DNA from: Clostridiaceae bacterium
GTDB taxonomy: Bacteria > Bacillota > Clostridia > Saccharofermentanales > UBA5734
Assembly: GCA_012523135.1 (NCBI GenBank)
Contig: JAAYJD010000014.1
Span: 1 to 44,774 of the forward strand
Length of the DNA stretch: 44,774 nt
Direction of reading: 5' to 3'
Shown: one piece after another, positions 4,553 through 43,300 of the stretch
Numbering within the stretch: position 1 is the stretch's first letter
How the letters are laid out: each line of letters starts with the position of its first letter
Made by a program: the position numbers and the translations under genes
Notes under the pieces: generated by a model
Databases searched by the model: none
The model's input: the letters and a program-made list of their open reading frames with translations, nothing else
What the model was told of the DNA's origin: nothing

Positions 4553-4820
4553 AACAATCAAGGCGATGACGGAGACAAGTAGCTGATCCATCACCGACAG
4601 GGCGTTCCGGCCCTGGACTGAGAGCCGGAACCGGCAGAGACGCAGCGAAATTCACTCCTGAGCAGGCAGCTGAACGTGCAGTAGGCTGACCCGCCTGCCC
4701 GGCGTTATGGGGCAGGGATATGACCGTATCCCGGCAAAGTGCGCAATTCGAACGGATTGCGAATATGGGTGGTACCGCGGTGGCCAAGCTGCCGTCCCAT
4801 GCTGGACGGCGGCTTTTTTG
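4553..4820 (+). promoter_or_regulatory. T-box riboswitch, specifier read as TTC (Phe), controlling paaK
   Basis: The T-box core GGGTGGTACCGCGG is at 4767-4780, followed directly by a terminator hairpin and a T run. Upstream is the expected Stem I, with AGTA near 4576 for the specifier-loop S-turn and GAAATTCACTCCTGAGC on the 3' side. By the usual alignment (GAA, one base, codon, then AC), the specifier is TTC at 4651-4653, which is Phe. T-boxes sense uncharged tRNA through the specifier and the NCCA end and then switch from terminator to antiterminator, so paaK should be expressed when Phe-tRNA is poorly charged. The T-box identity is secure. The codon assignment is inference, with ATT (Ile) and TCA (Ser) as the off-by-one alternatives. 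Confidence 0.9.
4788..4819 (+). terminator. T-box attenuator terminator
   Basis: The stem GCCGTCC/GGACGGC (4791-4797 with 4804-4810) is extended by AGC/GCT around single mismatches and ends in TTTTTT. It starts just downstream of the T-box core, so it competes with the antiterminator. Confidence 0.9.
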
Positions 4821-38392: not shown

Positions 38393-39121
38393 ATGCAACA
38401 AGAGCCCATGATCCTGTATCCGGCGATCGACTTGCTGCAGGGGCAGTGTGTCCGCCTGCACCAGGGACGCTACGACCAGGTGACCGTCTACAGCGACGAT
38501 CCCCTGGCGGTCGCCCGCCGCTTCCAGGCAGACGGCGCGGCCTGGCTGCATGTGGTCGATCTTGAAGCGGCCCGCTCCGGCCAGATGGTCCACACCGAGC
38601 TGATCGCCCAAATTCGCCGGGAGACCGGCCTGAAGATTCAAACCGGCGGCGGCGTCCGCACCATGGCATCGCTCGTGCTGCTGCTGGAAACGCACCAGAT
38701 TGAGCGGGTCGTCCTGGGGACGGCCGCCGTCAAGGACCGGCGCTTCTCCCAGGAGGCCCTCGCCCGCTATCCGGACCGGATCGCCATCGGGCTGGACGCT
38801 CGCGACGGCATGGTCTGCATCGACGGCTGGACCCGGGAGAGCGGCCTGGATGTTGTCGCTTTTGCCCGGACGATGGCCGACCTGGGGGCGCAGACCGTGA
38901 TTTATACCGATATCCGGCGCGACGGCACGATGCGCGGGCCAGCCCTGGCCGGCATTCGCCAGCTGGTCGCGCTCGGCCGCGTCGCGGTGATCGCGTCAGG
39001 CGGCATCGGCAGCCAGGCCGATCTCGAGGCGGTCCGCCAGACAGGCGCCGCCGGCGTAATTGTCGGCAAGGCGCTATATGAAGGAAAGGTTGTGTTGCCA
39101 TCATGCTTGCCAAACGCATAA
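38393..39121 (+). CDS. hisA: ProFAR isomerase (1-(5-phosphoribosyl)-5-[(5-phosphoribosylamino)methylideneamino]imidazole-4-carboxamide isomerase)
   Basis: The protein is 242 aa, a TIM barrel. Seen: [20 protein letters not shown] at about 7-26 with the catalytic Asp, [10 protein letters not shown] near 50, IQTGGGVRT near 80, [13 protein letters not shown] near 172 with the second catalytic Asp, and VIASGGIGS near 202. ATG 38393 is chosen; GGAGG ends 4 nt upstream, slightly close, and the GTG at 38375 is the alternative. It overlaps hisF by 19 nt. Confidence 0.96.
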
Positions 39122-40281
39122 TTCCCTGCCTGGATGTCCGCGGCGGTCGCGTCGTCAAAGGCGTCAATTTCGTCGATATCCGCGATGCCGGCGATCCGGT
39201 GGCGTCGGCGCGTGCCTATAACGACGCCGGTGCCGACGAACTGGTCTTCCTGGACATCTCCGCGACACTGGAAGAGCGCGACACCCTGATCGATGTTGTC
39301 AGCCAGGTGGCGGAACAGGTGTTCATCCCCTTCACGGTCGGCGGCGGCATCCGCAGCCTGGAGGATATCCGTAAAATACTCAAAGCAGGCGCCGATAAAA
39401 TTTCGCTGAATTCCGCGGCTGTGCTCAATCCGGATCTGGTCCGGGAGGCCTCCGACCGATTCGGCAGCCAGTGCGTGGTGGTTGCGATTGATGTCCGCCG
39501 CACGCCGCAAGGCCCGTATGAAGTCCTGATCGCGGGGGGGACCCGCTCTGCAGGCCTCGAAGCCGTCGCCTGGGCACGCAAGGTTGCCGAGCTCGGCGCC
39601 GGTGAAATTCTCCTGACCAGCATGGACCGGGACGGCACCAAGTCCGGCTACGATCTGGACATCACCCGCCAGATTGCCGACGCCGTTCCGATACCGGTGA
39701 TTGCGTCCGGCGGCGCGGGACGACTGGCCGATTTCTATGACGCCCTGACGCAAGGCGGCGCGGAAGCGGTTCTCGCGGCCAGCCTGTTCCATTTCGGGGA
39801 CATCACGATCCCGCAGCTCAAGCGCTACCTGGCGCTCCGGGAAATACCGGTCCGGTCTTCACCTGCCGAGCTGGAAGCGCTCGCCGGTTGTGCCAGGCCC
39901 TTTGCAGCCGGAACAGGTTTGGATGATCCCGCCGTTGCTGCGGCTATCTGGGCGCAGCTGAAAAAGGATGACCGGGGTCTGGTGCCCGTGATTGCCAGGC
40001 GGGCCGAAGACGGGGCCGTCCTGATGCAGGCATACGCCAACGAGGAGGCTTTCCGGGAAACGCTGGCCAGCGGCCTGATGCATTACTACAGCCGCAGCCG
40101 GGGCAAGCTCTGGCTCAAAGGCGAACAGTCCGGCCATTTTCAGCAGGTTCGCGCCCTGCGTGTCGATTGCGACGCGGATTGCCTGCTGGCGGATGTGCAC
40201 GCGTTTGGTCCCGCCTGCCACACCGGTGCCGAGACTTGTTTCTTTCGCACGATCGACGAACTGGCCGCCATAAAGCTTTGA
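39103..40281 (+). CDS. hisF-hisI: HisF-HisI fusion: imidazole glycerol phosphate synthase cyclase subunit + phosphoribosyl-AMP cyclohydrolase
   Basis: The protein is 392 aa in one uninterrupted frame. Residues 1 to about 250 are His[21 protein letters not shown] with Asp11, [25 protein letters not shown] with the second catalytic Asp, [15 protein letters not shown], and the normal end LREIPVR. A linker of about 40 residues follows, and then His[26 protein letters not shown]-type start, [30 protein letters not shown] and [13 protein letters not shown] with the zinc Cys residues. HisI is normally separate or fused to HisE, and here hisE is a separate gene downstream. Both halves retain their key residues, so this looks like a working bifunctional enzyme, not a sequencing error. 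Confidence 0.95.
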
Positions 40282-40320: not shown

Positions 40321-40608
40321 ATGAGCCAGATTGGACAGATTCTCGATGAACTATATGATGTTGTGCTCGACCGCCAGGCCAATCCCAAGGAAGGGTCTTA
40401 CACCAACTACCTGCTGGGGAAAGGGCTGGATAAAATCTGCAAGAAAATCGGCGAAGAATCGGCTGAGGTCATCATCGCCGCCAAAAACCGCCAGCCGGCC
40501 GAGTTGACATACGAAGTGGCCGACCTGCTGTATCACCTGTGCGTTCTGCTGGTGGAGCAGGAAGTTCGTTTTGACGAAATCGAAAAAGAGCTGCGCCAGC
40601 GGCGTTGA
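40321..40608 (+). CDS. hisE: phosphoribosyl-ATP pyrophosphatase
   Basis: The protein is 95 aa. It hydrolyses phosphoribosyl-ATP to phosphoribosyl-AMP. Seen: ANPKEGSYTNYLLGKGLDKICKKIGEESAEVIIAAKN-type core at about 20-56 with the EExxE metal site (GEESAEV), and ELTYEVADLLYHLCVLL near 61 with the ExxD motif. ATG 40321 follows AGGAGGATAACG. It is the last his gene; its stop codon lies in the loop of a hairpin. Confidence 0.97.
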   Translation: MSQIGQILDELYDVVLDRQANPKEGSYTNYLLGKGLDKICKKIGEESAEVIIAAKNRQPAELTYEVADLLYHLCVLLVEQEVRFDEIEKELRQRR

Positions 40609-40618
40609 CGCCGCTGGC
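40595..40618 (+). terminator. GC-rich hairpin at the hisE stop codon
   Basis: GCCAGCGGCG, loop TTGA, CGCCGCTGGC: a 10-bp perfect stem whose loop contains the hisE TGA. No T run follows, so by itself it is not a classical terminator. It may protect the 3' end or slow polymerase before the second hairpin downstream. Confidence 0.5.
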
Positions 40619-40645
40619 CAGCCTCTGGCACGTCATAAAAACTGT

Positions 40646-40674
40646 TTGACAAAAGACCCTGCCTGTGATAGAAT
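40646..40674 (+). promoter_or_regulatory. promoter of rpmG-secE-nusG-rplK-rplA
   Basis: TTGACA at 40646-40651, a 17-nt spacer and TAGAAT at 40669-40674. The expected transcription start is near 40681, leaving a leader of about 70 nt. The spacer carries the 5' arm of a terminator. Confidence 0.88.
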
Positions 40675-40707
40675 TCGTTTGCTTGTCCATAAAAGGGTCT
40701 TTTTTTT
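40651..40707 (+). terminator. his-operon terminator with its 5' arm inside the rpmG promoter
   Basis: AAAAGACCCT (40651-40660) pairs with AGGGTCTTTT (40694-40703), followed by further T residues to 40707. The loop is 33 nt. Transcripts arriving from hisE contain both arms and can terminate, whereas transcripts started at the rpmG promoter (near 40681) lack the 5' arm. The pairing and T run are seen; activity is inferred. Confidence 0.65.
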
Positions 40708-40708
40708 A

Positions 40709-40721
40709 TGTGATGATCACA
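40709..40721 (+). repeat. small palindrome in the rpmG leader
   Basis: TGTGAT-G-ATCACA is a 6-1-6 palindrome directly after the T run and about 30 nt before the rpmG start. It may be a protein site or chance. Confidence 0.3.
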
Positions 40722-40749: not shown

Positions 40750-40914
40750 ATGGCTAAAGCAGGAGTACGGGACAAGGTGACCTTGTCATGCACCGTATGC
40801 AAACAGAGAAACTATGACACCAAGAAGAACAAGAAAAACAACCCTGACAGGTTGGAAATGAAGAAGTATTGCAGATTCTGCCGCAAGCATACCGATCACA
40901 AGGAAACCAAGTGA
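40750..40914 (+). CDS. rpmG: 50S ribosomal protein L33
   Basis: The protein is 54 aa and too short for the ORF track. It begins [20 protein letters not shown] and includes [15 protein letters not shown]. Two CxxC pairs form a zinc ribbon, so this is the zinc-containing L33 type rather than the zinc-free type. ATG 40750 follows GGAGGTGA by about 8 nt. Location next to secE-nusG is the usual one. In many bacteria tRNA-Trp lies between rpmG and secE; the 34-nt gap here holds none. Confidence 0.96.
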
Positions 40915-40948: not shown

Positions 40949-41335
40949 ATGGCAGAAAAAGCCAAGAAAGACAACCGGCCGACCAAGCCCGCCCCTGTAA
41001 AACGGAACTTCTTCCAGAAAGTGGCCGCCTTTTTCGTCACGACTGGGAAGAAGCTGAAAAACTTCTTTGTCAATCTCAAGGCAGAGCTGAAACGGGTCGT
41101 ATGGCCGGACCGCAAGCGCCTGATCCAGAGTACGGCGACGGTTCTGGCGATTTGCCTGATCATTGGAGTCCTGCTGTTTGTCATCGACACGGTTCTCAGT
41201 GGCACCTTGAACGCCATTGGCTTTTATTCGCCTCAAGTGACAACGACGGCAACGACAACCGGCACGACGGCCGCTACAACGACCGCCACAACGACCGAAT
41301 CCGGAACAAGCGCCACGACGGCGCAGGCCGGGTAA
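40949..41335 (+). CDS. secE: preprotein translocase subunit SecE with Thr-rich C-terminal extension
   Basis: The protein is 128 aa, where a single-helix SecE is usually 60-75. Residues 1-35 are basic (KAKKDNRPTKPAPVKRN). The family core is at 35-95: FFVNLKAELKRVVWPDRKRLIQST, then the membrane helix TVLAICLIIGVLLFVIDTVL. After GFYSPQV the last 33 residues are almost only Thr, Ala, Gly and Ser (TTTATTTGTTAATTTATTT), a low-complexity tail expected outside the cell membrane. ATG 40949 is chosen; AAGGA lies about 10 nt upstream. It is followed 15 nt later by nusG. Confidence 0.93.
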   Translation: MAEKAKKDNRPTKPAPVKRNFFQKVAAFFVTTGKKLKNFFVNLKAELKRVVWPDRKRLIQSTATVLAICLIIGVLLFVIDTVLSGTLNAIGFYSPQVTTTATTTGTTAATTTATTTESGTSATTAQAG

Positions 41336-41350
41336 AGGAGTACGCAAGCT

Positions 41351-41887
41351 ATGGTCGAAGAAACCTCCTCGGAAGCCAAATGGTATGTTGTCCATACTTA
41401 TTCCGGGTATGAAAACAAAGTAAAGGCGACCTTGGAGCGAATCGTCGAAAATCGCGGCATCCAGGAATATATCCAGGAAGTCTCTGTTCCCATGGAGGAA
41501 CAAGTTGAGATCAAGGATGGCAAAAAGAAGGTCACCCAGCGCAAGATCTATCCAGGCTATGTTCTGGTCAAGATGACGCTGACGGATGAGATCTGGTATA
41601 TCGTCCGCAATACGCGCGGTGTAACCGGTTTCGTCGGACCCTCAAGCTCCAAGCCCACGCCGTTGACCGATGAAGAGCTGATGCTGATGGGCCTCGAGTC
41701 AAGCTGGGAACCCGTTGTCGACTACGATGTCGGCGATTCGGTCAAGGTGATCAACGGGCCGCTCGAAAGCTTTATCGGCACCGTCGAGGACATCAACCTC
41801 GACAAGAAGAAGGTGCGCGTGCTCGTTTCCATGTTTGGCCGCGAAACACCGGTCGAACTGGAATTGACGCAGATCCTGCGCATTTAA
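41351..41887 (+). CDS. nusG: transcription termination/antitermination protein NusG
   Basis: The protein is 178 aa. Seen: the NGN domain with [19 protein letters not shown] at 13-31, [31 protein letters not shown] near 67, and a C-terminal KOW domain with [21 protein letters not shown] near 127. It binds RNA polymerase and couples it to ribosome or Rho. AAAGGAG precedes ATG 41351. Confidence 0.98.
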
Positions 41888-43135: not shown

Positions 43136-43149
43136 AAACCAGCTAGAAT
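43121..43149 (+). promoter_or_regulatory. promoter of rplJL
   Basis: TTGACA at 43121-43126, a 17-nt spacer and TAGAAT at 43144-43149. Transcription would start near 43156, right at the L10 leader. Confidence 0.88.
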
Positions 43150-43155
43150 AGCCGC

Positions 43156-43285
43156 ATGCGCCCAAGACAGCAGGATTCCTCAAGGAAGTAAACGTCAGCC
43201 GTCCTGCCGAGGCTGCAGAGCCAGATTGTTTCATGAATCTGTCCTGCCCCTCTTGTCTTCAGGCGAGAGGGGCTTTATTTTGACC
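43156..43285 (+). promoter_or_regulatory. L10 ribosomal protein leader RNA
   Basis: The leader contains AAGACAGCAGGATTCC, TAAACGTCAGCCGTCCTGCCGAGGCTG and a final hairpin, the layout of the L10 leader found before rplJ in Firmicutes. The motif CCTGCCGAGG pairs back to CAGCAGG and resembles the L10(L12)4 binding site of 23S rRNA. Bound L10-L12 complex would favour the terminator and so lower rplJL expression. Confidence 0.85.
43246..43280 (+). terminator. L10-leader attenuator
   Basis: GCCCCTC (43246-43252) pairs with GAGGGGC (43267-43273), followed by TTTATTTT. It lies 20 nt before the rplJ start codon, so it serves as attenuator rather than end of operon. Confidence 0.75.
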
Positions 43286-43300
43286 AGAAGGAGGGATAAT

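Follow-up and report, generated by a model that had tools for sequence, protein, structure and literature searches.

A position-conserved hairpin and U-tract behind the rpmG-secE-nusG promoter of a Clostridiaceae bacterium and its relatives, with a proposed, lineage-specific terminator arm inside the promoter

In the Clostridiaceae bacterium studied here, the promoter of the rpmG-secE-nusG operon begins 37 nt after the stop codon of hisE (hisE stop to -35 box), which raises the question of what happens to RNA polymerase arriving from the his operon and whether the hairpin and T-run at this promoter are there to stop it, as a preliminary description of the locus had proposed. We addressed this question in a window of 44,774 nt, by which we mean the whole stretch of DNA that was analysed, from a metagenome-assembled genome (MAG) of 3.4 Mb whose nearest named relatives are Mageeibacillus/Fastidiosipila-like MAGs. 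Pfam searches upheld the gene calls and gave the order fused HisF-HisI, HisE, L33, SecE, NusG and L11 (Table 1). The HisF-HisI (PRA-CH) fusion is encoded by one open reading frame at 39103-40281, and a T-box leader (RF00230) was identified by Rfam elsewhere in the window, at 4557-4802.

Table 1. Positions of genes and transcription signals around the rpmG promoter of the window
Feature	Position	Strand	Basis
hisE (phosphoribosyl-ATP pyrophosphohydrolase), final gene of the upstream his operon	40321-40608	+	Pfam PRA-PH, E 2.5e-24
rpmG operon promoter: TTGACA (40646-40651), 17-nt spacer ending TGTGA (extended -10), TAGAAT (40669-40674)	40646-40674	+	promoter scan; aligned promoters of relatives
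5' arm AAAAGACCCT, reaching from the final A of the -35 box into the spacer; only in read-through RNA; lineage-specific	40651-40660	+	sequence, folding, relatives
Predicted transcription start, G, 7 nt past the -10 box	40681	+	inferred from promoter geometry
Leader-internal hairpin P2 (UCC/GGG), weak here; position kept in relatives	40686-40698	+	folding, relatives
3' arm AGGGTCTTTT, +14 to +23; common to read-through stem and leader element	40694-40703	+	sequence, folding, relatives
T8 tract, +20 to +27; this is what relatives conserve	40700-40707	+	sequence; relatives
rpmG (ribosomal protein L33)	40750-40914	+	Pfam Ribosomal_L33, E 3.2e-23
secE	40949-41335	+	Pfam SecE, E 7.8e-18
nusG, pro-pausing Y/N/T residues in WYIVRNT	41351-41887	+	Pfam NusG; alignment to 8ehq_G

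The promoter matches the consensus at 11 of 12 positions, and the pairing across it that had been described is exact: AAAAGACCCT is the reverse complement of AGGGTCTTTT, which gives ten perfect pairs around a 33-nt loop, followed by the T8 tract. The resulting 53-nt stem-loop (40651-40703) has a predicted energy of -15.4 kcal/mol (z = -3.47; none of 200 dinucleotide shuffles as good) and stays the minimum-energy structure within the longer RNA 40600-40707, whereas RNA initiated at the promoter (40681-40707) reaches -1.0 kcal/mol (z +0.66). The claim that the strong stem can be folded only by read-through RNA is thus upheld by folding. Similarly, the duplex between spacer and leader of the window (-16.3 kcal/mol) was matched neither by spacers swapped in from other groups (mean -7.0 kcal/mol) nor by any of 200 shuffled spacers (-5.4 kcal/mol), in tests that count relatives as separate observations. 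Four A:T pairs beside the -35 box come nearly free, because TTGACAA... faces a T-run, and the informative part of the stem is GACCCT/AGGGTC. As in intrinsic terminators, a stable hairpin of ten pairs stands immediately before a U-tract (U8); the loop, at 33 nt, is long for this class, in which 3-10 nt would be expected, and the stem was not listed by a standard terminator scan because the loop limit of that scan is 8 nt. RNA arriving from hisE would form the strong stem before the U-tract and terminate, and RNA started at the promoter, without the 5' arm, would not form it, so that a single U-tract could end the his operon and still let the operon's own transcript escape the strong stem. A terminator acting on the minus strand was rejected, since the stem is followed there by no more than T4 and a convergent gene was not seen. 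Right after the U-tract, at 40708-40713, lies AUGUGA, in which a stop codon comes immediately behind a start codon; it recurs in congeners L002-L004 and not in other genera; no ribosome-binding site was seen for it, and it is probably due to chance.

For comparison, we read the regions upstream of rpmG in 19 family members and in about 50 others belonging to the order, then in further Clostridia, and in a single genome for each of most remaining families in the class, bearing in mind that there may be errors in MAG sequences. Strong pairing between the promoter spacer and the 3' arm of the leader is seen in the window, in its nearest congener (L002), in all four species of genus g2 (L006-L009) and in both species of genus g4 (L011 and L013). 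In g2 the core of the stem reads GAUCCCU or G(G)GUCCCU opposite AGGGAUC; in g4, L013 has GAUUCUG/CAGGGUC and L011 pairs with one mismatch. The duplexes of both genera range from -14.8 to -17.6 kcal/mol, and the departures from perfect complementarity in L007, L009 and L013 are G-U pairs. The 5' arm is absent, however, in three of five congeners (L003, L004 and L010), though 3' arm and T-run are present there (identical in L003); L010 has hisE 23 nt upstream. It is also absent in L005/L012, in g9, g5 and g8 and in others. Over the whole order, spacer-leader pairing did not differ significantly from that of permuted partners (p = 0.06); a column-wise pair count for this stem was left out because g1 and g2 have it one base out of register with each other. 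The co-variation anticipated at the outset is seen in g2 and g4, where changed sequence goes with kept pairing, and is not borne out in the three congeners, which lack the 5' arm, or significantly over the order.

A similar division applies to the proposed insulation from his read-through. Within the family, pairing is found in eight of the ten members in which hisE lies 3-42 nt from the -35 box, a gap with no room for another terminator, and in none of the nine in which hisE is farther off or undetected (Fisher p = 6e-4, uncorrected for relatedness). The pairing label needs three changes on the family tree, which is poorly resolved, and the observations are non-independent. That pairing tracks a short hisE gap supports insulation within the family, but in other families with hisE equally near the promoter the spacer arm occurs in none of 17 loci. 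Taken together, these comparisons indicate that the read-through terminator was added in certain lineages only, that it is not a universal feature, and that it has probably been selected.

The T-run itself is present in every readable family member and in nearly all members of the order, 20-27 nt past the -10 box and with a starting point that hardly varies, and its presence among relatives is independent of the spacer arm. Directly before it stands a short hairpin whose sequence is group-specific (GCUUGU/ACAAGU, CUCCG/CGGAG, ACCUC/GGGGU, AGACC/GGUCU and GCCUUGAA/UUCAAGGC). Over 42 divergent leaders, the hairpin abutting the T-run averaged -4.03 kcal/mol, compared with -1.0 to -1.75 kcal/mol in 20 shuffle sets, and in relatives RNA from the rpmG promoter itself is predicted by folding to be able to form a terminator-like hairpin. 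In a class-wide sample with one genome per Clostridia family (a few families twice), 32 of 60 genomes had six or more consecutive T in the expected leader span against 5.0 expected from shuffles, the 32 being a rough figure because promoters were taken by best score without inspection; controls gave 7 in an upstream stretch and 4 for runs of at least six A. In this sample the median distance from the -10 box to the start of the T-run was 23 nt, and the mean hairpin energy was -2.64 kcal/mol versus -0.71 kcal/mol (sd 0.16). About half of the sampled families are without the T-run. Judged by pattern search, the arrangement TTGACA-N16-18-TANNNT-N14-28-T7 has a single match in the organism's own 3.4-Mb genome, the rpmG locus, and its matches in relatives are mostly at that locus.

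Other structures were seen in these leaders. A stem enclosing the U-tract, P1, was significant over the 42 leaders (p < 2e-4, mean rank 0.39) and strong only in some groups, so that a common antiterminator is not established and a single antiterminator stem for all leaders, which we had considered, finds no support in this test. Strong P1 stems enclosing the U-tract occur in leaders L028, L029, L016 and L019, for example UUUUCCCGCAA...UUGUGGGAGAA in L028; they are partly exclusive with the hairpin before the T-run and are candidate antiterminators. In many gut Clostridia MAGs (L068-L106), a different conserved leader without a T-run is found upstream of rpmG, in which a GCATG...CATGC hairpin is followed by TCACATCGTTA, and which may offer another means of controlling the operon.

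How are these observations best explained? On balance, we lean towards the view that the leader is a promoter-proximal pause or attenuation element of rpmG-secE-nusG, perhaps responsive to NusG, to which a promoter-embedded read-through terminator has been added in this lineage. As in an attenuator, a hairpin lies directly before the T-run, past the predicted start, and is conserved in relatives; counted from that start, hairpin and U-tract fall within the first ~27 transcribed nucleotides and are conserved in position and not in sequence over the order and in about half of the sampled Clostridia families. The fraction of RNA polymerases stopped or released there would then set the output of the operon. 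At ~27 nt, the transcript is about as short as hairpin-driven release allows. The window's own leader hairpin (-0.4 to -1.0 kcal/mol) is among the weakest of the set, which makes hairpin attenuation of its own transcript doubtful in this species and leaves the U-tract only.

NusG, the product of the third gene of the operon, could control pausing or release in the leader, and is the most attractive effector because Bacillus-type NusG acts at U-tracts, through TTNTTT pausing, and in termination at weak hairpins. In B. subtilis, terminators that depend on NusG combine weak A-U/G-U hairpin bases with U-tracts carrying TTNTTT (Mandell et al., PMC8060035; for weak hairpin bases and U-tracts see also PMC12288461), and residues Y77, N81 and T82 of B. 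subtilis NusG are required for the U-tract pause motif (PMC8060035). In an alignment to 8ehq_G, the NusG of the operon keeps the equivalents of these residues (WYIVRNT versus WYVVRNT). The motif TTNTTT is present in the non-template strand, within T8, and is trivially contained in any run of T7. We propose that polymerase pauses or is released in the leader, possibly with NusG in control, because the hairpin and U-tract, spanning +1 to +27, are arranged like a pause or intrinsic termination site and the motif-reading residues of NusG are kept; it is the genomic company and the residue identity that suggest this link. The wider idea, that NusG throughout the Clostridia controls its own operon, which also encodes L33, SecE and other ribosomal proteins, through pausing close to the promoter and premature termination at about +27, with a dual element including a promoter-embedded terminator arm in some lineages, is tentative and in our judgement doubtful.

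Among the alternatives, the U-tract might work by polymerase slippage, or as a stability or protein-binding element at the 5' end of the RNA, and not by pausing or termination. The position of T8 inside the initially transcribed region and the overall significance of P1 are in line with such a role, but the hairpin found so consistently before the T-run has the layout of a terminator, and P1 is strong in some groups only; we consider this alternative unlikely. The leader could also be a general, unregulated terminator of upstream read-through, at the price of losing part of the operon's own transcripts. This would suit the many loci in which hisE lies immediately upstream without another terminator, yet the element is also present where the upstream genes differ or lie far off, and the normal place of a terminator is before a promoter, which makes this reading quite improbable. 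The idea that the promoter-embedded terminator is all there is, its whole purpose being to shield the ribosomal operon from his read-through, draws on the strong asymmetric folding, the altered but pairing arms of g2 and g4 and the association with a short hisE gap inside the family. However, the genus, family, order and class all include members that keep 3' arm and T-run while lacking the 5' arm, and hisE-adjacent relatives from other families lack the 5' arm. Since conservation of the T-run and its preceding hairpin reaches far beyond that of the spacer arm, the leader is not there for the read-through terminator alone, and the T-run has an additional, older reason; insulation, the role first assigned to it, is already refuted as a full account, and that it should be the whole purpose is accordingly a poor prospect. 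Finally, a DNA operator bound by a repressor or looping factor, as the inverted repeats of ~10 bp straddling the -10 box and start site might indicate, is very unlikely, because the arm differences in L007, L009 and L013 are compatible with G-U pairing in RNA and would not be selectively tolerated by a DNA site, and the repeat is absent in congeners.

The rpmG leader had no Rfam match, whether the window was searched at the gathering threshold or 11 loci were searched at E <= 1, and a survey of 20 new ribosomal leaders names rpmG only in a reference title and leaves rplK, secE and nusG unmentioned (PMC7247131). In the open-licence literature we found no direct account of nusG autoregulation, of a nusG-operon attenuator or of a secE-nusG leader, and no description of a terminator with its 5' arm in the next promoter. 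A position-conserved hairpin and U-run behind the promoter of the nusG operon in many Clostridia families poses a concrete question: is promoter-proximal pausing the means by which Bacillus-type NusG adjusts its own level? In eukaryotes, Spt5 is linked to promoter-proximal pausing. The lineage-specific spacer arm would be a compact natural terminator that tells transcripts apart by their origin and, if it works, could be used as an insulator.

Compared with known systems, the rpmG leader resembles intrinsic (Rho-independent) terminators and attenuators in its layout, a hairpin in the 5' leader with a U-tract right behind it. It differs in that the element spans about +1 to +27, in that an alternative antiterminator shared by all leaders is not established, and in that the strong hairpin of the window needs an arm inside the promoter. 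Leader attenuation of a neighbouring ribosomal protein operon is represented by the L10 leader of rplJL (RF00557; PMC4538822), which Rfam places before rplJL in the window itself (43143-43288); unlike the rpmG leader, it is ~140 nt long, has an unrelated structure and binds L10(L12)4 (PMC4538822). With the NusG-dependent pauses and terminators of B. subtilis, such as those of the trp leader and ktrD (PMC8060035), the rpmG leader shares a weak hairpin, a T-rich non-template tract and the motif-reading residues of NusG; in contrast to those sites, it is promoter-proximal, its dependence on NusG is putative, and the operon behind it encodes NusG itself.
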